NCBI GenBank assembly: GCA_039973685.1
Contig: JBDWKL010000043.1
Location: 62,001-126,000, forward strand
DNA from: Hyphomicrobiales bacterium
GTDB taxonomy: Bacteria > Pseudomonadota > Alphaproteobacteria > Rhizobiales > JACESI01
Reading direction: 5' to 3'
Length of the DNA stretch: 64,000 nucleotides
Shown here: piece after piece, positions 22,807 through 35,070 of the stretch
How positions within the stretch are numbered: the first letter of the stretch is position 1
Layout: each line of letters starts with the position of its first letter
The notes under the pieces: generated by a model
Told to the model about the DNA's origin: nothing
Seen by the model: the letters and a program-made list of their open reading frames with translations, nothing else
The model's database searches: none
Position numbers and translations under genes: made by a program

Positions 22807-23385
22807 TTACCTCAAACCATCCTCGCCAATTGCATCACTAGCCTCAAGACCGCCAACTCTCGGCAATGGTCGACCAGAATCTGTAACGGCGATTGCAACC
22901 AAAATTTCGTTAGCGCGCGGTGCATCGTTTATCCGCACTTCCATCCCATCAAAATGCGAGCGAACGTAAGCCGCATCTTTATGGCCAAGCGGTATATCCA
23001 ACGGATGGCCCATTGCGCCCATTTTCTTTGAAGACGGAACCAATGCGGCACCCTTTTCAACTTCAGCACGAAGAGGCTTGCCCATTCTTGGATGAAGAAT
23101 GGCGGCGGCGTGTTCCAACTCACCGTTCTCACCAACTAGCGCTGCTTTACCGTAACTCTCTGCTTGTTCCGGTTTAATGCCGAGCGCCTCAACGCACTTT
23201 TGGCCAAGAAGACCACCAAGTTTTTCACCAATCACCATGAGATCTTCCAGATCAGCCTGAAACTTACCTGCAAAGGGATTGTCAATAACCGCGATCGCTG
23301 CTGCCCGTCTTGTCGGCGGATCAATCGTTTCACCAATTTCAATATGCGTATCTTCGACGGTTGTTACAATTTTGCGAATTTTCAT
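22807..23385 (-). CDS. DUF1185 'amino acid synthesis' family protein, copy 1
   Basis: 192 residues, full length for PF06684. Conserved stretches are AVIDNPFAGKFQADLEDL, ESYGKAALVGENGELEHAAA, VPSSKKMGAMGHPLDIPL and VRSHFDGMEVRINDAPRANEI, ending with EASDAIGEDGLR. The biochemical function of the family is not established despite its database name. It overlaps the second paralogue by 4 bases and is the last gene of the operon that starts with the aldehyde oxidoreductase. Pairing with a paralogue of nearly equal length suggests a heteromeric complex. Its location inside a nicotinate-pathway operon makes it a candidate for an unassigned step such as decarboxylation of 2-formylglutarate. Confidence 0.85.
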   Translation of the reverse strand: MKIRKIVTTVEDTHIEIGETIDPPTRRAAAIAVIDNPFAGKFQADLEDLMVIGEKLGGLLGQKCVEALGIKPEQAESYGKAALVGENGELEHAAAILHPRMGKPLRAEVEKGAALVPSSKKMGAMGHPLDIPLGHKDAAYVRSHFDGMEVRINDAPRANEILVAIAVTDSGRPLPRVGGLEASDAIGEDGLR

Positions 23386-23966
23386 CTTAAGCCATCCTCA
23401 CCTATGATGTCAGCAGCAGCAAGGCCACCAGCACGGTTATGAATACGCGGACCTGTCGTCATGACCAAAATCACCATCATTTCATCAGCGCGCGGCGCGT
23501 CATTAATGCCAACTTCGATGGAATCGAAATGAGAGCGCACATAAGAGGCATTGCAGTGCGTGACAGGCACATCAATGCGGGTTCCCATTCCACCCACTTT
23601 TTTGCTTGAAGGCACAATTGCATTGGACGCTGGCAGATGTTCACGCATCGAATATCCGCCGGGTGCATGCCACAAAGCGCCATGTTCAAGCTCGCCCGCC
23701 TCACCAACAATCGCCGCCTTACCGTAGCCTTCAACAATAGAGCCATCGCCACCAAGCGATTCAATTAGCTGCTTCGCCATAGACATACCAAGCGGCTTAA
23801 GATCGTCAATGAAACCGATGATTTCTTCAACATACTTACCAGCAAATGGGTTTTGAATAACGGCTGCAGCTGTTGCTCTTCTCAAAGGCACATTAGAAAC
23901 TGGGCCTCCTTCGTGGAAAATTTCTTCCACAGTGACAAACCGTTTTCTGACGATAACTTCAGGCAT
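23382..23966 (-). CDS. DUF1185 'amino acid synthesis' family protein, copy 2
   Basis: 194 residues. It aligns end to end with the preceding paralogue: AVIQNPFAGKYVEEIIGF, EGYGKAAIVGEAGELEHGA, VPSSKKVGGMGTRIDVPV, VRSHFDSIEVGINDAPRADEM and ADIIGEDGLR. Copy 2 has His where copy 1 has His or Asp around residue 140 (THCNASYVRSHFD against GHKDAAYVRSHFD). Gene duplication followed by joint retention argues for distinct roles in one complex. It overlaps the UPF0280 gene by 8 bases. Confidence 0.85.
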   Translation of the reverse strand: MPEVIVRKRFVTVEEIFHEGGPVSNVPLRRATAAAVIQNPFAGKYVEEIIGFIDDLKPLGMSMAKQLIESLGGDGSIVEGYGKAAIVGEAGELEHGALWHAPGGYSMREHLPASNAIVPSSKKVGGMGTRIDVPVTHCNASYVRSHFDSIEVGINDAPRADEMMVILVMTTGPRIHNRAGGLAAADIIGEDGLR

Positions 23967-24888
23967 AAACTAACTCCTTTGATGCCATGTTAGATGGGTG
24001 ACTAGTTTCACCTCTAAGGACATTTTGGCAGGCGCCCTGATTAAATGTTTGACCGCGCAAATTTGCGAAGACTGCCTCTATATGGCCGTGCCCAATCATT
24101 GAGCTTGCTAACGCTCGGCCTCGGCTCAACGCCAATTCAATCTCGTGATCCTGTAACATACCCACAGCGACCGTCACTGGTCTATGACCTAAATCAGAAT
24201 CGGGAGAAAGTTCACTTGCAGGGACACGCGTTATTTCAGCATGATTGGGTAAATCAATGGCATTCGCAATAAGGGTTGCCGCCACATCCGCGCTCGCGGC
24301 ATTCTTGGCCAGCACGGTCACCGCATCTGCAATGCCTAAAGAATGGCTTCGTCCTTGCCATCCACTGGTCGCGATGCCGCCCACCTTATGATCGCTTGCA
24401 ATATGCGCTTTTGACATGATCTCGCCTGTTTCAATATCGGCGCAAATCCCAATATCAAAATGGGCTTCGTTGGAAAGATACAACGCAATATCTCCACCAT
24501 TGTTTACGTAAGCACGTTCAAGGAAGGTTCCAGCTTTCATGGCAGCCAATATGTAATCAGCAACCGCTCCGGCGACTGATATCATGGGTGATGCAAACAA
24601 AGACCCAGCAATCTTCGACGTTGCTCGGTACATGTTCTGTGCAATTTCACCTTGCAAGATCGGTTGCGCTGGCCCGAGCGGTTTTCTCAAAATATCCAAC
24701 TCAACGACAAGGTTCGTTAAAACCGTTTCAAAAGCCGCTACTGCTTTTTGATAAGCCAAAGCAACTTGATCTGCATTGCCTGTGGCCTCAATGACTAAAT
24801 CTATAGGTCCATGCCTTAACGCAAACCGCTTCCCATCGGGTAGCCATCCTGTTTCGACATTCTCTGTAAATTTATTTGTCATCGACAT
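23959..24888 (-). CDS. UPF0280 family protein (ApbE-like fold)
   Basis: 309 residues. The stretches MISVAGAVADYILAAM, YVNNGGDIALYLS, GGIATSGWQGRSHSLGIADAVTVLAKNAA and ADVAATLIANAID match UPF0280. That family is related to ApbE flavin transferases by the NNGGD and ATSG motifs but usually lacks the complete FAD site. The role is unknown. It is located between hydroxynicotinate reductase and the DUF1185 pair in one operon, with a 4-base gap to the former. A flavin-loading or an enzymatic role in the pathway are both possible. Confidence 0.85.
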   Translation of the reverse strand: MSMTNKFTENVETGWLPDGKRFALRHGPIDLVIEATGNADQVALAYQKAVAAFETVLTNLVVELDILRKPLGPAQPILQGEIAQNMYRATSKIAGSLFASPMISVAGAVADYILAAMKAGTFLERAYVNNGGDIALYLSNEAHFDIGICADIETGEIMSKAHIASDHKVGGIATSGWQGRSHSLGIADAVTVLAKNAASADVAATLIANAIDLPNHAEITRVPASELSPDSDLGHRPVTVAVGMLQDHEIELALSRGRALASSMIGHGHIEAVFANLRGQTFNQGACQNVLRGETSHPSNMASKELVYA

Positions 24889-24892
24889 AAGC

Positions 24893-26383
24893 TCATTTTG
24901 CTACCACTGGCCATGCGTTATCGGCATGAGGTTCAACCTGTCTTTGCCCTTTTAACAGATGATCTTTTTGCAACCCTGTGCCGCCTGCAACAGCATCTTC
25001 AATTGGAATGATGTATTCCATATGGCCACCAAGCGCTTCAAAATCTTCACGGCGCATTGTGAATTCAATAGGTGCGACAAGCGCAGGTGTCGGGACATAA
25101 CCAAATGAATTATCCGGCATACGAGCGACATCAGACATGATGGTTATGCCACCACCAGGCCACCGATAGGCATCTGTGCCGCCACAGGTAACAGTGGTCA
25201 ATGCGGCTTGCGCCGACCGTGTTAATTTAACAGGGTTTTCCGTAACGCCTGCACGAAGCGAGCCACCTGCTCCGCCCATAAACAGGACGGAACATAATGC
25301 AGGTTCACAGTTTTCTTCAATGCGCTCAATTGAGTTTTGCAAACGATCAGGAATGTCTTTTTGAATTGGTTTTAAATCCGCATCCAATTCGTAATAGGCA
25401 AAGTGCTCGCCGGTTGTTGAAACCATCAACAGTGATTGCCCTTCAACCGCCACCTTGGCGTTGAAATCACCCAAAATCACCAACGGATCGTCAAGGTTTG
25501 TGCCGCCCCATCCTGTGCCCGGTCCAGCGACTTGAAAATACCGACCTGGAGTTGAACGGCGGCCCTTAATTTTTATGCCTGTTTCTTTCCATCCAATCAC
25601 TTTACCCGCTTGGTGTTCAGACATTACGCCTGTGATGTGGTCATCAACCACCACAACTTCATCAACGAGATCTTTCCATTGGGAGGCAAACATACCGACA
25701 GTTGCAGAACCACAACCAACCCGCATTCGCTCCTCAACAACGCCATTTATGATGGGAGCTTTATCTGCTTGGACGACAATTTCTGACCCTTCATCAATGG
25801 TAAGAGTAACGGCCTCACCGTTGCACAATGCCAATAGAGTTGAGCAGGTAACGCGGCCTTCTTTTTTGCCACCACCAGTAAGGTGATGCACACCACCGAG
25901 TGACAACATTTGAGAGCCGTATTCACCAGTCGTTACGTGGCCAATTGGCTCTCCATTTGCACGCACAAGATTGCGTTCAGGCCCAAGATGTCGATCTGTG
26001 TCGATTTTTACTTTTGCGCCGCAATAACTAAAGATACCTTCGGTCACGACGGTGATCATATCAACCCCGTCAACTTCACTAGAAACAATGAACGGCGCTG
26101 GTTTGTAATCTGGGTATGTTGTGCCAGCCCCGATAGCCGTTACAAACTGATCTTTCGGTTTGACGACGTTGCCATCCCAAGGCTTGTCCTCTTCAAGAAA
26201 AGGAACCACGTCACCACCGTCTTCTATGCGTCGTTCCAACACGACCAGCGGGTCAAGTCGAACTAAGTTGCCGCCTTCATTAGCATAGCGGTCACATGCA
26301 CCTGATTTCCCATCAGCGATATAACACATGACGGGGCACGCATCGCAGCGGATTTTTTCTGGTTTTACTGGAGCTTCAGTCAC
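24893..26383 (-). CDS. 6-hydroxynicotinate reductase, iron-sulfur protein
   Basis: 496 residues from a GTG start that follows the TAA of the dehydrogenase gene directly and has GGAG eight bases upstream. The N-terminal CDACPVMCYIADGKSGAC gives four Cys (13, 16, 20, 30) for a [4Fe-4S] cluster. The family is that of Eubacterium barkeri hydroxynicotinate reductase (EC 1.3.7.1), which uses reduced ferredoxin to convert 6-hydroxynicotinate to 1,4,5,6-tetrahydro-6-oxonicotinate. The family call rests on the Cys-rich N-terminus, the length and the neighbours: nicotinate dehydrogenase upstream, enamidase nearby and a ferredoxin in the operon. Other conserved-looking parts are TTGEYGSQMLSLGGVHHL, GPGTGWGGTNLDDP and YRWPGGGITIMSDV. 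Confidence 0.85.
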   Translation of the reverse strand: MTEAPVKPEKIRCDACPVMCYIADGKSGACDRYANEGGNLVRLDPLVVLERRIEDGGDVVPFLEEDKPWDGNVVKPKDQFVTAIGAGTTYPDYKPAPFIVSSEVDGVDMITVVTEGIFSYCGAKVKIDTDRHLGPERNLVRANGEPIGHVTTGEYGSQMLSLGGVHHLTGGGKKEGRVTCSTLLALCNGEAVTLTIDEGSEIVVQADKAPIINGVVEERMRVGCGSATVGMFASQWKDLVDEVVVVDDHITGVMSEHQAGKVIGWKETGIKIKGRRSTPGRYFQVAGPGTGWGGTNLDDPLVILGDFNAKVAVEGQSLLMVSTTGEHFAYYELDADLKPIQKDIPDRLQNSIERIEENCEPALCSVLFMGGAGGSLRAGVTENPVKLTRSAQAALTTVTCGGTDAYRWPGGGITIMSDVARMPDNSFGYVPTPALVAPIEFTMRREDFEALGGHMEYIIPIEDAVAGGTGLQKDHLLKGQRQVEPHADNAWPVVAK

Positions 26384-29125
26384 TTATTGAACTCCATTCA
26401 AAGATTTCAATGCTGATAATACTTTATCAGGCGTTGCAGGAAGGTCTGAGATGATTGCGCCAGTGGCATCGCGAATAGCATTCAAGATTGAAGGAGCCGT
26501 TGGAATAAGAACGTGTTCACCCAGTCCCTTTGCGCCATACGGACCTTCGGCATCTTCAACTTCCAAAATGATGTTTTCAAACTCAGGCATATCACCAATT
26601 GTCGGCATCAAATAATCATGCAAATTTTCTGTACGGCCTGGCAAATAATCTTCCATCAGTGCCAATCCAATTCCCTGTGCCACGCCGCCTTCTATTTGAC
26701 CTTCCACCAACATTGGATTGATCGCTCTGCCCACATCATGGGCCGTGGTGATCTTATCCAGTTTGATGGTGCCAAGGCGGGTATCGACAGTAAGTTCCAT
26801 AAGCTGCGCACCATAGCCGTAGACCGCATAAGGGATACCCTGCCCCTTTTCATCCAACGCCGAAGTTGGCGGATCATAAGTCTCTTCAGCCATGAAAACA
26901 TAACCATATTCATTGGCTGCAATTTCTTCTGTGTGAATAGATACTGTTTCACCTTCATCCGAGATATTGATGACGTTCCCTGAGATGGAAATTGTCGCCG
27001 TCTCTCCAACATTTACCTGACGCAATAAGGTTTGACGCAATTGCTCACCTGAGAGCTTTGCAGCACACCCTGTAACGTAGGTCTGACGGGAAGCGGATGT
27101 TTTACCGCAATCTGGTGTTAAGTCGGTGTCACCATCAATCAACGTGATCGAATGAACAGGAACCCCCAGCGCATCAGCCGCAATTTGCGTAATCACTGTA
27201 TTAGCACCTTGCCCAATATCCATAGCGCCTTGGTGCAAAACAACGTCTCCATTGTTGCGAATACCCATTCTGATTGTCGACGGATTAGGCAGTGATGTAT
27301 TGCCACATCCATACCAGCAAGACCCAAGCCCGACACCTTTTCTCAGGCCCGTTTCACTTTGAGATTGGTTGAATGCTTTTGCTGCATCATTAGCTTTTTC
27401 CCATGCAGGCTTAAGCGCTTCAAGACATTCTACAATGCCAACGCCTTTGTTGAAAACCTGCCCCGTAACGGTCGGCTGATTGTTGCGAAGACCGTTCTTT
27501 ATTCTAAATTCTAAGCGGTCAATTCCAACTTTATCTGCCAGCTGATCAAAAGCTGTTTCTTGCGCAATGGCAGACTGCGGCACACCAAAACCTCTGAATG
27601 CGCCAGAAGGTGGTGTGTTCGTGTGAACAGCCACTGAATGCGCGCAATAATCGGGCGTAAAATATGGACCAGATGCGTGAACAGGCACCCTGTTGGCAAC
27701 TGTCGGGCCCCAACTTGCATAAGCGCCAGTATTGAAGGTACCGTCGAAGTCAAACCCACTTAATAAGCCATCATCATCACAACCCACCGTTAGCGAGATT
27801 TCGGATGGATGCCGTTTTGTGGTGGCACGCATGGATTCAGTGCGCGTGTAGCAAATTGTAACGGGTCGGTTCAACCGCCAAGCAGCTAGCGCTACATAGG
27901 GTTGAAATGAGATATCTAGTTTCGACCCGAAACCTCCCCCGCATGCCGATGGCATAACCCGTATGGCGCTTTTATCCATACCAAGAATTTCAGACAAACT
28001 ATCACGGTCCATTTGGGCTGCTTGCGTACAGCCATAAATCTCAAGCCGATCACCTTTGCGCATGCAATAGCCAGCCTCTGGTTCGATATACCCATGCTCA
28101 ATAAAAGGCGTGGAGGTTGCAACCGTTACTGTGTGTGCGGCATTAGCGAGAGCTTCCTTCGTATTGCCCCGCTCAACATAACCACGCACCAAAACATTGC
28201 CTTCGCGCGTTTTATGGAGCTGGTCCATAGAGGGCGCCAGAGCTTCACTCGGCAATAAGGCGTGATTGCGTTTTGTCCATTTGACGGGAAACGCATCGCC
28301 TTTCAATTGCTTGATTGCGGCAGGCTCTCCGACGATCGCAGCGATTGCTTCACCGCGATAAATTGCCGTGCCTTCTGCAAAGACCGGCTGGTCAGCAAAG
28401 GGTGGGATAACGCCAAAGCAATTGACGCCTTCAATATCGGACGCATCAAATACCGCAACGATGCCAGCGTTATTTTCAACAAACCCATCTTTGTCGCCAA
28501 TTTCAAAATCAGCAAAATGATGAGGGCTTCTGACAACAAGAACTTGCAAAGCATCTTGCGGAATAACATCCGAACCGTAGGCCAATTCACCGGTTACTTT
28601 TGGCACCCCATCCAAATGAGAAATAGCCGCCCCAACGCCTGCACCTGCCTGAGGTGGTGTGACGTTGCTTATTGGACGATGTGTATTGGCAACAGCTTCA
28701 ACGATCTTTTTGTACCCTGTGCACCTGCAAAGTACGCCGCCCAATGCATCTTCAATTTCTAGGTGCGTTGGATGCGGGTTTTCGTTCAACAACGCATTTG
28801 CCGAGATCAACATGCCAGGTGTGCATATGCCACATTGAGCTGCGCCATGACGCAAAAAACTTTCCTGCAACGCACTCAAAGTGCCGTTATCTGAAAGCCC
28901 TTCTGCTGTCTCAACAGCCGCCCCCTCAACTTGGTTTGCAGGCGTTAAGCAAGCGCAGGCCGTTTGACCATCTATAAGCACAGTACACGCACCACAGTCA
29001 CCGGCGTTGCAACCAATTTTAGTCGCAGTCAAACCAAGATTATCGCGCAAAACATCAGACAAGCGATCGGTCGGATTGGCTTCAATCTCGACGGCTTTAT
29101 CATTTACTTTAAATGCTATTTGCAT
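26384..29125 (-). CDS. fused [2Fe-2S]/molybdopterin dehydrogenase, probable nicotinate dehydrogenase
   Basis: 913 residues from the ATG preceded by GGGAGG (7-base spacing); a 27-base upstream extension is not needed. Residues ~1-155 hold both [2Fe-2S] clusters: GCNAGDCGACTVL and the helical-domain QCGICTPGM with LCRCTGY. The rest is the xanthine-dehydrogenase-type molybdopterin domain (ACGGGFGSKLDI, FRGFGVPQ, DIGQGANTV, QIEGGVAQGIGLALMEDY, GAKGLGEHVL). GAKGLGE carries the catalytic Glu. The predicted reaction is hydroxylation of nicotinate at C6 with water as oxygen donor. In E. barkeri the same functions are spread over separate small and split large subunits. The FAD subunit is encoded just upstream. 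Confidence 0.9.
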   Translation of the reverse strand: MQIAFKVNDKAVEIEANPTDRLSDVLRDNLGLTATKIGCNAGDCGACTVLIDGQTACACLTPANQVEGAAVETAEGLSDNGTLSALQESFLRHGAAQCGICTPGMLISANALLNENPHPTHLEIEDALGGVLCRCTGYKKIVEAVANTHRPISNVTPPQAGAGVGAAISHLDGVPKVTGELAYGSDVIPQDALQVLVVRSPHHFADFEIGDKDGFVENNAGIVAVFDASDIEGVNCFGVIPPFADQPVFAEGTAIYRGEAIAAIVGEPAAIKQLKGDAFPVKWTKRNHALLPSEALAPSMDQLHKTREGNVLVRGYVERGNTKEALANAAHTVTVATSTPFIEHGYIEPEAGYCMRKGDRLEIYGCTQAAQMDRDSLSEILGMDKSAIRVMPSACGGGFGSKLDISFQPYVALAAWRLNRPVTICYTRTESMRATTKRHPSEISLTVGCDDDGLLSGFDFDGTFNTGAYASWGPTVANRVPVHASGPYFTPDYCAHSVAVHTNTPPSGAFRGFGVPQSAIAQETAFDQLADKVGIDRLEFRIKNGLRNNQPTVTGQVFNKGVGIVECLEALKPAWEKANDAAKAFNQSQSETGLRKGVGLGSCWYGCGNTSLPNPSTIRMGIRNNGDVVLHQGAMDIGQGANTVITQIAADALGVPVHSITLIDGDTDLTPDCGKTSASRQTYVTGCAAKLSGEQLRQTLLRQVNVGETATISISGNVINISDEGETVSIHTEEIAANEYGYVFMAEETYDPPTSALDEKGQGIPYAVYGYGAQLMELTVDTRLGTIKLDKITTAHDVGRAINPMLVEGQIEGGVAQGIGLALMEDYLPGRTENLHDYLMPTIGDMPEFENIILEVEDAEGPYGAKGLGEHVLIPTAPSILNAIRDATGAIISDLPATPDKVLSALKSLNGVQ

Positions 29126-29969
29126 GATCAAGCCTCCCTTGTACGTCGGCAATAACGCGGCCTACCAATTCTCGGCTTGCATCCATTCGATAAACTCCAC
29201 TTGCCCGCACATCATCAATTGGGGCTAAGTCTTTCATGTGTTCAGCTAAGATGAATTCTGGCGTAATTTTATCGAGCGGTTGACCAACAAGTGCCGCTTC
29301 CAGTGCCGTTAGCCGCTTTGCGACAAGTGAACACGAACCAACACTAATAGCAGCGCCTAAAATTGTATTTTGATCATCCACTTCAATTCTCGCTGCAACC
29401 ATGGAAATTGAGATGACTAAATATTTTCGTGCGCCAAGCTTCAAAAAGCTCGAAGCACCTTTTGCCGCGTCTGCTGGAATAATGATCGCGGTTACAATTT
29501 CATCATCGCTCAAATCAATTTTACGGTTGCCCAAAACAAAGGCAGAGATTGGAAGCCGACGATTGCCGTCGATTGACGTTATTTCGACCAATGCATCTAG
29601 CGATAACAAAGGAGGCATGCCATCAGCTGCCGGAGATGCATTGCAAATGTTGCCTGCTAATGTTGCTCTATTTTGAATTTGCACGGACCCTACTTCGCGA
29701 GCCGCTAATTTCAAGCCATCAAAAGCTGGAGGCAGATCAGCTTTAATCACATCAGTCCACGTAACCAACGCACCAATCGACCAAGAACCATCAGACCGTT
29801 TCGTAATTTTCTTCAGGCCAGCTATTTTTGAAATATCCAGTATATTTCCTTCAGGCTGCCGATCTTGCAGACTAGGATAGAAGTCTGTTCCTCCCGACAA
29901 CATTGACCACTTATTCGAAGATAAAAGATCAAGAGCTGCATCCAGCGTTTTTGGACATTCAAATATCAT
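29109..29969 (-). CDS. FAD-binding subunit (subunit M) of the molybdenum hydroxylase
   Basis: 286 residues, normal for the CoxM/XdhB FAD chain. WSMLSGGTDFYPSLQDRQ is the FAD-binding loop near residue 25. VGSVQIQNRATLAGNICNASPAADGMP is the second FAD motif and includes NRATLAGN. LKLGARKYLVISISMVAARIEV belongs to the CO_deh_flav_C domain. It passes electrons from the iron-sulfur clusters of the next gene product to an acceptor. Its last 17 bases overlap the start of the fused chain, so the two are translated together. Confidence 0.92.
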   Translation of the reverse strand: MIFECPKTLDAALDLLSSNKWSMLSGGTDFYPSLQDRQPEGNILDISKIAGLKKITKRSDGSWSIGALVTWTDVIKADLPPAFDGLKLAAREVGSVQIQNRATLAGNICNASPAADGMPPLLSLDALVEITSIDGNRRLPISAFVLGNRKIDLSDDEIVTAIIIPADAAKGASSFLKLGARKYLVISISMVAARIEVDDQNTILGAAISVGSCSLVAKRLTALEAALVGQPLDKITPEFILAEHMKDLAPIDDVRASGVYRMDASRELVGRVIADVQGRLDHANSI

Positions 29970-30043: not shown

Positions 30044-30379
30044 TCAATCACCAACACCCGGTTCAGGTGATAGATGAGCCTCTTTCGATGCCACTCCATC
30101 CCACTTTGCAGCATCAGCAGGAGCCTCACCTTGCTCTGTGATATTTGGCCAAACCTTTGCATATTTTGCGTTGATTTCTAACCACTTCTCCAGCCCAGGT
30201 TCTGTATCTGCTTTAATTGCCTCAGCAGGGCATTCAGGCTCACAAACACCGCAGTCGATACATTCATCAGGATGGATCACAATGAAATTTTCACCGATGT
30301 AAAAACAATCGACAGGACAAACTTCAATGCAGTCTTGATACTTACATTTAATGCAGTTTTCAGTTACGACGTACGTCAA
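30044..30379 (-). CDS. fdxA: 7Fe ferredoxin, FdxA type
   Basis: 111 residues. [18 protein letters not shown] at the N-terminus and [12 protein letters not shown] around residues 40-51 are the Cys pattern of Azotobacter ferredoxin I-type [3Fe-4S]/[4Fe-4S] proteins. The extended tail ends SPEPGVGD. The start is TTG: TTGA overlaps the stop of the aldehyde oxidoreductase gene, and GAGGG lies seven bases before it. Being cotranscribed with an aldehyde:ferredoxin oxidoreductase and 6-hydroxynicotinate reductase, it is the natural electron shuttle between them (inference). Confidence 0.93.
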
Positions 30380-32100
30380 TACACCACCCTCGTTTCAATC
30401 AAATTGGCCATATATTCGTTGATTTCACCACTCTTCAAGCGCGCCTTTTGGCCCGTTGGTGGAAGCTCTTCTTTTAAGAAAAATTCTGGCAACTCATCAT
30501 CTTCAGCGGTGAATCCAGCATCATCATTGAACGCCTTTTCAAGCCGCAACGTTTCAATTCCAATATCCTTGATGAAATCAGGATCAACATCACATTGATG
30601 GGCATCATTTATGGCATCGGCGATGAGCTTTAAATTGTCATCTGTTACTGATCTACCGAAAACACAAAGACCAAAAGAGTCAGCAACGGCACTATTGACC
30701 TGCATTCTGAAGCTTTCAGCGACCAGCTCCTCAATGGACTTATCATCACACTTGAAACCTGGCGCATTTCCAACGGTGTGATCAGCGCCTTGGGCCGTCA
30801 ACATCATTGAAATTCCGGTGACTTCAATGATACGCGGATCATAAGCACTAATTGCCTGCTTCTTGATGACGGGAACACGCTCCACACCAAGCCCCTCGCC
30901 AACACGTGCTGTTCCTTGCGCGAGAAATTCCCCACGTTCGCCACCAGCACGAATTTCCGTCAAACAATGTTTCATGAATTCCAGATCGCCAAATTCGGCT
31001 TCACCAGCCTCCATCAACACCCCAATGGTTGCACCAAGTTCGATACTATCCACACCGAGATCGTTGGCCGTTTCATTGAGCAGTGCGACATCATCAGGTT
31101 CGGTCAACCCGCAGTTAGTGCCAAGCAAACCAATGGTCTCGTACTCCAAGGGAGAAACAAGCTCTCGGCCATCTTTATCAACGTACACATTGCTACATTT
31201 GATCAAACAACCAGGCATACATGCGTGTGAAATTTCACCACCCCGCGAGGAATTTAACTCACGAATGTAATCACCGCCCATCTTCAACGGGCCACCGTCT
31301 GGAGGTGTTAGTTGTCCTGATGAAAAATTGCGAACGGGCAATGCGCCCATGTAGTTTGTGAGATCCCCCACCATTGCTGTCCCTGTGGACTTCAACGTTT
31401 GGATCGGAACCGCCTCATTCAGCATTTTGCCATATTCTTTTACCGCACCCATGACCTTTTTACGATCATGCACAGGCGGCATTTTGTGCTTATCGATGAC
31501 GATCGCTTTAATTTTCTTAGCGCCCATCACTGCACCCACACCACCTCTAGCCGCTAAGCGTGATGGTCTGTTATCGGTATCTGAAAACGCGATACCAGCC
31601 ATAAGGCCGAGATATTCGCCAACAGGACCGCAAAGCGCGAGGGATACTTTTTGCCCATATTCTTCATGGAGTTTGGCGGCGCAATCAAAATTACCTAGCC
31701 CCATATAAGGTGCTGCATCATGAAAAGTGATGGGGCCTTCTTTTGGAATATGCAGGACAACCCAATCATCTGAGGCGCCATTGAATATGATCGTGCCAAT
31801 TTCCAATTGGCCCATTGCATAAGCAAAAGTGCCGCCGCTATTGGCTTCCTTTATTCCGCCAGTCAAAGGGCTCTTACACCCCACACTCAATCTATTGGCA
31901 TTGGAAAAATTAGTTCCTGCAAAAGGGCCTGCGGAGAAAATCAGCGGGTTTTCTGGTGCAAGCGGATCAACCTTTGCCACATCTCGCTCAACCAAGGTGC
32001 GAGCAATTAAATATCTCCCAGCCTCAGCAACAGCACGCGCTGACATCTCTTGACTTTCAATAGCCTGCGACTTCAGATCAATCTCAATATGCTTCCTCAT
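30376..32100 (-). CDS. aldehyde:ferredoxin oxidoreductase family tungsten/molybdenum enzyme
   Basis: 574 residues from MRKHIEIDL, whose ATG has GGAGGGG seven bases upstream. [20 protein letters not shown] and [18 protein letters not shown] are the AOR N-domain pterin-binding stretches. CMPGCLIKC (CxxCxxxC) plus Cys in FGLCVFG give the [4Fe-4S] ligands of the C-domains. Family members oxidise aldehydes to acids and reduce ferredoxin. They are common in anaerobes and less usual in alphaproteobacteria. In this operon the expected substrate is the aldehyde made by enamidase (2-formylglutarate) or its decarboxylation product glutarate semialdehyde. It is the first gene of the seven-gene operon 32100-22807 and is divergent from gcdH. 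Confidence 0.9.
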
Positions 32101-32163
32101 AGCAAATCCCCTCCAATGCAAGCACAACCCTAAAGAAGCTTAGTGATAGCACTCTATTATTAA

Positions 32164-32371: not shown

Positions 32372-32601
32372 AAATCGAACATTCATATTTTTAGCGCTTA
32401 GTTTAAGAGCCTACAGAAATGATCGGCAGTAAATGAGCGTGCAAAGGCTTGCGGTGCAAATGTTTAAATGAATAATCCGTAATCTTGAGATTGCTTAGGA
32501 TTGGAAACAACGGTTGTCACTCTTGTGAGACGACTCGTTTTAATTGGCCAACTTCTCTGCAACAGCCGTTCAAAAGTGACAACCAGTATTTAGGAATTAA
32601 C

Positions 32602-33816
32602 ATGACCAACAATATCTCACCTGCCAGCAGGCCTGATCTTTCTACATTTGTCTGGGACGATGCATTTAAGCTGGAAGGTCAGCTGTCAGAAGAAGAACGG
32701 CTCATTCGAGATTCTGCGCGACAATACGCACAAGAAAAGCTGCAACCGAGAATCATAGAAGCCTTTGAAAACGAAACGACCGATCCTGAAATCTTTCGAG
32801 AAATGGGTGAGATGGGTCTTCTCGGCGTCACCACCCCCGAAGCTTACGGCGGCGTTGAGGCTGGTTATGTAAGTTATGGCCTTGTCGCCAGAGAAATTGA
32901 GCGTGTTGATAGCGGTTACCGCTCAATGATGTCGGTTCAATCATCGCTCGTCATGTACCCCATCTACGCCTACGGGTCTGAAGAACAACGCAACAAGTTC
33001 CTTCCCAAGCTTGCATCGGGTGAATGGATTGGCTGTTTTGGCCTGACCGAACCGGACGCGGGTTCTGATCCGGCTGGCATGAAAACAACCGCGAAGAAAG
33101 TTGATGGAGGATACGTATTATCCGGCAGCAAAATGTGGATCTCAAACAGTCCAATTGCAGATGTATTTGTGATTTGGGCAAAATCAGACGCACACGACGG
33201 CAAAATTAGAGGCTTCGTTCTTGAAAAGGGCATGAAGGGTCTTTCAGCACCGAAGATTGGCGCAAAACTATCCCTGCGCGCTTCTATTACCGGTGAAATC
33301 GTTATGGACGGTGTCGAAGTAGGTGAAGATGCACTGCTTCCCAATGTTCAAGGATTAAAAGGCCCGTTTGGTTGCCTCAACCGCGCCCGCTATGGCATCA
33401 GCTGGGGTGTATTAGGTGCCGCAGAATTTTGCTGGCATGCAGCGCGCCAATATGGCCTCGATAGAAAACAGTTCAATCGTCCTTTGGCGCAGACTCAGCT
33501 TTTTCAAAAGAAGCTCGCAGACATGCAGACGGAAATTACATTAGGCCTTCAAGGCTCACTGCGGGTCGGTAGATTGATGGATGAAGCTGATGCGGCTCCA
33601 GAAATGATTAGCCTGATGAAACGCAACAACTGCGGCAAAGCATTGGACGTGGCCCGCATGTCGCGCGACATGCACGGCGGCAACGGGATAAGCCAAGAGT
33701 TTCAGGTCATTCGCCACATGGTCAATCTAGAGACTGTGAATACCTACGAGGGAACGCATGACGTGCACGCCTTGATTTTAGGCCGCGCGCAAACTGACTT
33801 GCAGGCTTTCTTCTAA
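32602..33816 (+). CDS. gcdH: glutaryl-CoA dehydrogenase (decarboxylating)
   Basis: 404 residues from [11 protein letters not shown], with AGGA six bases before the ATG; the upstream in-frame stretch is not conserved. It is very close to human GCDH throughout: [20 protein letters not shown] (substrate-carboxylate Arg in SGYRS), [57 protein letters not shown] and the catalytic Glu in [15 protein letters not shown]. It oxidises and decarboxylates glutaryl-CoA to crotonyl-CoA in the cytoplasm, passing electrons to ETF. Placement beside nicotinate genes and the shared operator support a role in the last part of nicotinate breakdown. Confidence 0.97.
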
Positions 33817-33853: not shown

Positions 33854-33877
33854 TTAGCATACAAATAATAATGCTAA
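33854..33877. promoter_or_regulatory. TTAGYATRC operator copy with full inverted repeat, upstream of enamidase
   Basis: TTAGCAT-N10-ATGCTAA is a perfect 7-bp inverted repeat in the 75 bases between gcdH and the enamidase gene, ending 14 bases before the enamidase ATG. This is the most symmetric of the four copies. The left half reads TTAGCATACAAATAATAA, nearly identical to the livK copy. Confidence 0.7.
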
Positions 33878-33891
33878 ATCTTGAGGCTCAC

Positions 33892-35070
33892 ATGAACTCG
33901 GAATCGAAAAAACTGGTTATCCGAAATATCGGACTATTGCTCTCAGGCAAAATGGAAGCCCCCATATATGATGGCGACTGTGTGATTGCGATCGATGGCA
34001 AGATCACCGAATGGGGATATGAAAAAGACCTCGATACTGAAGGCGCGACAACTGAGGTCGACGCCAATGGCGTGACGCTGGCGCCTGGTTTGATCGATAG
34101 CCACATTCACCCTGTGATTGGCGATTACACACCCCGCCAACAACAATTACATTGGATCGATTCAACTCTTCACGGCGGGGTCACCACGCTCATTTCTGCT
34201 GGTGAAGTTCATATGCCTGGCCGCCCGAAGGATATTGTTGGTCTCAAAGCAATGGCGATTGCGGCACAGCGTTGGTATGAAAACTTTCGCCCCTCTGGTG
34301 TGAAGGTTCATGCTGGTGCGCCAGTAATTGAACACGGCATGGTGGAGCAAGATTTTAAAGACCTTGCTGATGCAGGCGTAAAGCTTCTTGGCGAAGTTGG
34401 GCTTGGCACTGTTAAAGACGGCAAGACAGCCAAGGAGATGGTGGGTTGGGCACGCAAATATGGCATCCAAAGCACCATTCACACAGGCGGGCCTTCAATA
34501 CCCGGTTCAGGTTTGATTGATGCTGACATGGTTCTTGAAACAGGCACAGATGTGATCGGCCACGTGAACGGCGGACACTCTGCCCTTCCAGACGATCAGA
34601 TTATTTGCCTTTGCGAAAGCTGCACCAGCGGCCTTGAAATCGTCCACAATGGCAATGAACGCGCGGGCCTTCTAGCATTAAACACCGCCCGCGAACTCAA
34701 GCAGATGGACCGCATTATATTGGGAACAGATGGACCAGCTGGTTCAGGCGTGCAACCGCTTGGCATCATGCGCATGGTTGCGATGCTCTCTAGCCTTGGC
34801 CATGTGCCAGCGGAAGTAGCGTTTTGCTTCGCCAATGGTAATACAGCGCGCCAACGTGAGCTTGATACGGGCCTTATCGAAAAGGGTTATTGCGCTGACT
34901 TTGTGCTTATGGACCAAGCGCAACACGCGCCGGGCAAAACAATATTGGAATCTGTTGAACAGGGTAATTTACCAGGTATCGGCATGACCATCATTGATGG
35001 CGCGATCACCAGCGAACGTAGTCGCAACACCCCACCTGCCACCCGACTTCCAATCATCGTAAAACAGTAG
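33892..35070 (+). CDS. enamidase (1,4,5,6-tetrahydro-6-oxonicotinate hydrolase), amidohydrolase family
   Basis: 392 residues from MNSESKKLVIRN, whose ATG has GAGG five bases upstream; an ATG at 33871 lies inside the operator repeat and is less likely. It matches Eubacterium barkeri enamidase (EC 3.5.2.18): GDYTPRQ, LHGGVTTLISAG, PGRPKD, GVKVHAGAPV, LLGEVGLGTV, HTGGPSIPGSG, HVNGGHSALP and GTDGPAGSGVQPLGI. The metal ligands are seen in DSHIHP (HxH), the Glu of GEVGLG, the His of IHTGG and HVNGGH, and the Asp of GTDGP. It opens the ring to 2-formylglutarate and ammonium. It follows gcdH in the same direction. Confidence 0.92.
   Translation: MNSESKKLVIRNIGLLLSGKMEAPIYDGDCVIAIDGKITEWGYEKDLDTEGATTEVDANGVTLAPGLIDSHIHPVIGDYTPRQQQLHWIDSTLHGGVTTLISAGEVHMPGRPKDIVGLKAMAIAAQRWYENFRPSGVKVHAGAPVIEHGMVEQDFKDLADAGVKLLGEVGLGTVKDGKTAKEMVGWARKYGIQSTIHTGGPSIPGSGLIDADMVLETGTDVIGHVNGGHSALPDDQIICLCESCTSGLEIVHNGNERAGLLALNTARELKQMDRIILGTDGPAGSGVQPLGIMRMVAMLSSLGHVPAEVAFCFANGNTARQRELDTGLIEKGYCADFVLMDQAQHAPGKTILESVEQGNLPGIGMTIIDGAITSERSRNTPPATRLPIIVKQ

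Follow-up and report, generated by a model that had tools for sequence, protein, structure and literature searches.

The nicotinate operon in the 64,000-nucleotide stretch of DNA analysed here (the window; part of genome G000, contig C43) raises the question of how 2-formylglutarate is taken on to glutarate semialdehyde and CO2 after ring opening, and what is done by three proteins encoded inside the operon, two paralogues of the DUF1185 family (AAs1 and AAs2) and one UPF0280 protein. DUF1185 (PF06684) is currently named AA_synth. A preliminary description of the window had put forward all three proteins as candidates for a missing decarboxylation step. The comparison covered 397 genomes of the phylum, 91 AA_synth neighbourhoods and the best 80 of 591 matches to 6-hydroxynicotinate reductase (Hnr) from named genomes, none of these 80 being from Firmicutes. 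Gene calls in the neighbouring loci were mechanical.

Gene organization of the nicotinate locus

The minus-strand genes were arranged in the transcription order of aldehyde ferredoxin oxidoreductase (AOR), ferredoxin, molybdenum hydroxylase (FAD subunit, then the fused 2Fe-2S/Mo subunit), Hnr, UPF0280, AAs2, AAs1 and a branched-chain-type ABC transporter, and the genes for acyl-CoA dehydrogenase and enamidase (Ena) were on the plus strand upstream of this operon (Table 1). UPF0280, AAs2 and AAs1 were all located downstream of Hnr on the same strand. The overlaps were exactly 4 bases between AAs1 and AAs2 and 8 bases between AAs2 and UPF0280, as expected for translationally coupled genes. The three genes, the 4-base overlap and the operon shared with reductase and enamidase were thus real and had been placed correctly in the preliminary description.

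Table 1. Annotated features of the nicotinate locus, with positions in the window
Feature	Position	Strand	Assignment
AAs1	22807..23385	-	PF06684/AA_synth (DUF1185) protein, 192 aa; Ena-linked paralogue
AAs2	23382..23966	-	PF06684/AA_synth (DUF1185) protein, 194 aa; paralogue constant with HyuAB ring opening
UPF0280	23959..24888	-	ApbE-like fold; putative Hnr flavin maturation factor
Hnr	24893..26383	-	6-hydroxynicotinate reductase, partner of UPF0280
Molybdenum hydroxylase	26384..29969	-	Fused 2Fe-2S + Mo subunit, plus FAD subunit; presumed nicotinate 6-hydroxylase
FdxA-type ferredoxin and AOR-family aldehyde ferredoxin oxidoreductase	30044..32127	-	Profile matches
Acyl-CoA dehydrogenase	32485..33816	+	Presumed glutaryl-CoA dehydrogenase; profile matches
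Ena	33871..35070	+	Enamidase (amidohydrolase); match to structure 2vun

The Ena protein aligned along its entire length with the solved structure of Eubacterium barkeri enamidase (2vun; residues 14-394, 342 bits, E 2.9e-101), and the enamidase call is considered sound on sequence grounds. Hnr was 60-73% identical to plasmid-borne relatives annotated as 6-hydroxynicotinate reductase, with Cys 13, 16, 20, 30, 121, 224 and 359 invariant in the alignment. The molybdenum hydroxylase contained MoCoBD_1/2, Fer2 and FAD_binding_5 domains, and nicotinate dehydrogenase 3hrd was among its matches. AAs1 and AAs2, which were 48% identical, matched the Pfam HMM of PF06684 at full length with 244 and 230 bits, respectively (curated cut-off 27 bits), and UPF0280 scored 329.8 bits with NCBIfam NF003322/PRK04334, above the cut-off of 290. 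The window genes therefore appear to include both the enamidase and the 6-hydroxynicotinate reductase by which the THON-type nicotinate pathway of E. barkeri and Azorhizobium is recognised. In the E. barkeri pathway, 2-formylglutarate is reportedly reduced and not decarboxylated.

A total of 20 loci with Ena were compared for recurring families. Those found in at least 10 of the 20 loci were AA_synth, Hnr, Ena, UPF0280, ABC transporter parts, a MarR regulator, a NicB-type hydroxylase and a ferredoxin-NADP reductase-like protein. No decarboxylase-like family recurred among them, which agrees with the statement of the preliminary description that the cluster encodes no recognisable decarboxylase.

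Relatives of AOR were found in four of the 80 best Hnr loci (of 591), all with Ena, and other clusters carried ferredoxin-NADP reductase. By oxidising glutarate semialdehyde, AOR could feed two electrons back to a ferredoxin-dependent Hnr in each turn and form a closed electron loop. In addition, a plasmid of Sulfitobacter sp. CB2047 (L222) carried a nicotinate cluster in which Hnr was annotated as a hypothetical protein.

Association of UPF0280 with 6-hydroxynicotinate reductase

Strong matches to Hnr and to UPF0280 were found in an identical set of 38 of the 397 genomes (Fisher 6e-54, a descriptive value as are all p-values here, since genomes share ancestry and independence is overstated). 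UPF0280 lay directly 3' of Hnr in 77 of the best 80 of 591 Hnr-seeded loci. One of the three exceptions was at a contig end (L129), and the other two, in G407 (L155) and G411 (L203), had an intact UPF0280 elsewhere in the genome. An apparent stop inside UPF0280 of G407 was rejected as the position was the natural gene end, and an apparent UPF0280-DUF1185 fusion in L077 was rejected as an open-frame artefact.

The predicted structure of the window UPF0280 (AF2, pLDDT 87.8) aligned best with DVU1097 (Z 19.6) and gave a Z of 16.9 over 220 residues with the FMN transferase TP0796 (4ifu; Foldseek E 2.7e-4). Overall, the ApbE/Ftp/FmnB flavin transferases aligned over about 210 to 220 residues with Z of 14 to 17, and the first fold of another kind was urate oxidase at Z 7.8. 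With Pfam ApbE (PF02424), the orthologue in L033 scored 26.1 bits against a cut-off of 25.6 bits, and the window protein gave no match. Profile alignment showed that the catalytic His-Asp-Pro loop which follows the ATSG motif in ApbE was absent from UPF0280, the nearest aligned position being His in the window protein and Phe in most relatives; the protein is therefore termed ApbE-fold here and not an ApbE member. No paper on UPF0280 was found in the literature searched.

The canonical ApbE acceptor motif is D-x-x-S/T-G-A-S/T, and inspection of the Hnr alignment by eye gave no clear instance of it. The Thr of GCGSAT was not conserved in Hnr, and an invariant D-D-H-I-T-G-V (247-253) bore a resemblance to the motif and nothing closer. 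The Hnr of E. barkeri reportedly contains covalently bound flavin.

UPF0280 almost certainly serves Hnr, the ring-reducing enzyme, and most likely matures it or loads its flavin; the identical genome sets, the ApbE fold and the covalent flavin reported for Hnr make this the simplest reading. With an ApbE-type fold and a genome set equal to that of Hnr, UPF0280 is not a candidate for decarboxylation, contrary to the first proposal. The same proposal had added in passing that the three proteins might load a cofactor, which fits UPF0280 best.

Distribution of the DUF1185 pair and ring-opening genes

AA_synth was present in 74 of the 397 genomes, half of them without Hnr, and in 37 of the 38 Hnr genomes. 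All 14 genomes with a tandem AA_synth pair had Hnr and 13 of them had Ena, so the pairs were not found mostly apart from nicotinate genes, the outcome which the preliminary description had named as speaking against its proposal; the co-occurrence that it had suggested checking was borne out. The DUF1185 pair belongs to nicotinate breakdown.

The two paralogues differed in their partners. Among Hnr genomes, AAs1 was found in 23 of 24 with Ena compared to 0 of 14 without Ena (descriptive p 1.6e-9), and AAs2 alone went with clusters which had hydantoinase A/B (HyuAB) in place of Ena. Similarly, in the Hnr-seeded loci (best 80 of 591), AAs1 was present in 29/29 Ena loci, and the 17 HyuAB loci had AAs2 in every case and AAs1 in 8. 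HyuAB instead of Ena was seen in many Hnr clusters (L074:11233-15011, minus strand; L051; L124) and, judging from the genes, would be a second, ATP-dependent route for opening the reduced ring. When clusters were split (G409, G122 and G170), the pair was with Ena and UPF0280 was with Hnr, and the AA_synth pair thus usually stays with Ena. G407, with AAs1 directly after Hnr and UPF0280 elsewhere, spoke against strict modules.

Since AAs1 tracks Ena and the pair usually remains with Ena in split clusters, the DUF1185 pair probably acts at the step immediately following ring opening, in which glutarate semialdehyde and CO2 are formed from 2-(aminomethylene)/2-formylglutarate. This placement is the best supported part of the earlier assignment of the pair to the decarboxylation step, and decarboxylation itself is the part that we infer. 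G134 had an Hnr-UPF0280-HyuA-ABC transporter cluster in a genome without any AA_synth, so the step would be dispensable or spontaneous there, and an uncatalysed course may also be possible more generally.

In two loci without Hnr (L102, 5071-6848; L114, 4080-5910), an amidohydrolase with 40% identity to Ena came directly after AA_synth. This arrangement perhaps belongs to another ring-opening pathway and, like the linkage to Ena, it points to the ring-opening product.

The joint action of UPF0280 and DUF1185 as the decarboxylation step, as first proposed, would account for their being neighbours in the majority of Hnr clusters. However, UPF0280 occurred without AA_synth nearby in G134, L141, L142 and L170. 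UPF0280 was present in all 36 AA_synth neighbourhoods with Hnr, but 55 of the 91 neighbourhoods had AA_synth without UPF0280. As the distributions separate, and with UPF0280 having the ApbE fold, a joint step is largely refuted and is considered highly improbable.

Structure and conserved residues of DUF1185

AAs1 matched 2qtp with 305 bits (E 1e-90), and its AF2 model (pLDDT 93.7) had the PF06684 fold, with Z of 27.0 to 3byq and 25.3 to 2qtp. A total of 104 AA_synth sequences showed invariant R4, N36, K80, G85, E91, H92, R106, P132, P156, E160 and R176, and almost invariant E89, R142, H144, D154 and R172; these counts left out L057:10326-10889 and L090:9789-10322, which were apparently mis-framed and had very long branches. 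In PF06684, E/R salt bridges occur together with a His cluster at the dimer interface, and adjoining them is a cavity of roughly 1000 cubic angstroms whose walls are formed by helix H4, the beta5-H5 loop and the C-terminus (PMC2954203). Among the salt-bridge and His-cluster residues, E89, E91, H92, H144, R172 and R176 were conserved. By our own mapping, R106, R142 and H144 fall in cavity-lining parts, with H144 in the loop bordering the dimer-interface cavity of 3byq. Neither a metal nor a cofactor motif was evident, and these features would fit acid-base or electrostatic catalysis acting on a dicarboxylate substrate. The 2010 structure paper proposed amino-acid metabolism for the family, without a pathway or substrate (PMC2954203).

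Beyond AA_synth, the fold neighbours were Rid proteins (best PA0814, Z 6.7, and ACIAD3089, Z 6.0), chorismate mutase and cyanuric acid hydrolase. Their Z of 5 to 7 is in the range of common arrangements, below 8, and too weak for choosing a reaction, and no Rid family was among the Pfam matches of the window. One alternative that draws on these neighbours is that AA_synth acts as a RidA/RutC-like enamine deaminase which hydrolyses the aminomethylene-dicarboxylate, with decarboxylation then spontaneous. An enamine is said to occur at this point in both the nicotinate and the trigonelline routes, and clusters opened by HyuAB have no bifunctional enamidase and always have AAs2. However, enamidase already releases NH3 and 2-formylglutarate (PMC9304392), yet AAs1 is obligatory with Ena, and coumarin-type clusters have no nitrogen at the corresponding step. 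Deamination by AA_synth is therefore regarded as unlikely.

DUF1185 outside nicotinate breakdown

Most other AA_synth copies were in a cluster of genes for a GntR regulator, alpha/beta hydrolase, flavin reductase, luciferase-like monooxygenase and aldehyde dehydrogenase. On an annotated Acinetobacter plasmid, genes of this cluster were named tgnA, tgnB and tgnC, and a succinate-semialdehyde dehydrogenase was nearby. Such trigonelline-type loci, defined by three or more of four tested genes, made up 32 of the 91 neighbourhoods, and their AA_synth proteins formed one clade (32 rows, SH-aLRT 100) in a quick tree. In both the trigonelline route and the nicotinate route of Azorhizobium, a 2-(aminomethylene)/2-formyl-dicarboxylate is reportedly converted to a semialdehyde and CO2, and the missing step of the window would therefore be chemically equivalent to that of TgnF. 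TgnF and the DUF1185 protein HcdD are homologues that had already been placed in trigonelline and 7-hydroxycoumarin breakdown, respectively (PMC7913881). Nicotinate breakdown would thus not be the first concrete pathway for DUF1185, contrary to the earlier suggestion, because half of the DUF1185 genomes are without Hnr, mostly with trigonelline clusters in which TgnF assists the equivalent step.

TgnF has been described as a stimulator of TgnE-dependent succinate-semialdehyde oxidation (PMC7913881), and AA_synth is hexameric with highly conserved interfaces (PMC2954203). Both points are consistent with AA_synth having no catalytic activity of its own and instead passing the unstable aldehyde to its dehydrogenase or binding the ring-opening hydrolase. 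Such a role seems quite unlikely, as AA_synth occurs with differing aldehyde oxidisers, AOR in the window and aldehyde dehydrogenases in the trigonelline clusters.

Smaller DUF1185 groups were in extradiol/FAA-hydrolase or monooxygenase/ThDP clusters, where 2-formyl-dicarboxylate chemistry is not expected, and this counts against a step shared by the whole family. An enol-keto tautomerase for beta-dicarbonyls, supplying the keto form for the next decarboxylation or cleavage, would unite the nicotinate, trigonelline and FAA-hydrolase/extradiol clusters, settings with enolised intermediates, and the cofactor-free conserved set rich in His, Arg and Glu would suit it. Tautomerisation is, however, often fast without an enzyme, and we give this function a low probability.

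An arrangement resembling the 7-hydroxycoumarin hcd cluster was seen in L103, L104, L106, L108, L109, L112, L116 and L117, with AA_synth adjacent to genes for FAA hydrolase, an extradiol dioxygenase-like protein and zinc alcohol dehydrogenase. A third AA_synth gene of G000 (L120, contig C27, 9738-10334) was in a looser trigonelline-like cluster, adjoined by a ThDP enzyme similar to sulfoacetaldehyde acetyltransferase.

Proposed roles of UPF0280 and the DUF1185 pair

On balance we lean towards two separate jobs, UPF0280 acting for the Hnr flavin and the AA_synth pair after the ring-opening hydrolase. UPF0280 would be an ApbE-fold protein dedicated to Hnr, which would bind a flavin nucleotide and attach or load the Hnr flavin, with no part in decarboxylation. 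The AA_synth pair would act directly after the ring-opening hydrolase as a hexamer, whose dimer-interface cavity may present Arg, Lys, Glu and His residues that fit a dicarboxylate and need no cofactor, and would speed the formation of glutarate semialdehyde and CO2 from 2-(aminomethylene)glutarate/2-formylglutarate, which is probably enolised in part. Co-occurrence, gene linkage, fold and residue conservation were observed, and from these the flavin loading, the substrate and the chemical step are inferred. Decarboxylation, enamine hydrolysis and tautomerisation are not distinguishable from sequence. Decarboxylation of the 2-formyl-dicarboxylate is slightly preferred as the elementary step over enamine hydrolysis or enol-keto tautomerisation, because ammonia is already freed by enamidase and AAs1 is still obligatory with Ena.

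A bolder proposal, put forward tentatively, is that DUF1185/AA_synth may be a new class of cofactor-free enzymes, sequence-unrelated to known decarboxylases and deaminases, which convert 2-(aminomethylene)/2-formyl-dicarboxylates to omega-semialdehydes and CO2 in nicotinate and trigonelline breakdown, and that UPF0280 may at the same time be a new class of flavin transferases dedicated to Hnr. Crystal structures of DUF1185 have existed since 2007-2008, still with no substrate, and the present data give definite partner enzymes for both DUF1185 and UPF0280. Nicotinate and trigonelline breakdown would share a helper family for steps that are chemically equivalent, and the proposed role of UPF0280 suggests how a flavin reductase may acquire its cofactor.

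Comparison with known systems

AAs1 shares family and fold with SPO0826 (2qtp), a close relative, and BB2672 (3byq), both hexamers in solution, and the gene of SPO0826 adjoins a branched-chain ABC transporter as the window pair does (PMC2954203). The four-His cluster described for PF06684 includes His174 (PMC2954203), which is Leu in AAs1, the only such change at the interface. UPF0280 resembles the ApbE/Ftp FMN transferases (TP0796, Vibrio cholerae ApbE) in its fold over 220 residues and in the ATSG and AD..AT motifs, and differs from them in its missing His-Asp-Pro loop. From the nicotinate cluster described for Azorhizobium, Bradyrhizobium and strain SG-6C, where no function was assigned (PMC3511419), the window differs by two DUF1185 copies, the fused molybdenum hydroxylase and AOR with ferredoxin.

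HcdD of Pseudomonas mandelii is, like the window pair, a DUF1185/BCM-like protein in an inducible ring-breakdown operon, but the 7-hydroxycoumarin pathway is without nitrogen, unlike that of nicotinate, and no effect of HcdD could be demonstrated in vitro (PMC7913881). TgnF of Acinetobacter baylyi belongs to a separate clade of the tree, acts on a substrate one carbon shorter and is accompanied by neither Hnr nor UPF0280. However, like AAs1 and AAs2, it is a DUF1185 homologue which adjoins a hydrolase giving an intermediate of the formyl-dicarboxylate type, and it assists the step to succinate semialdehyde.
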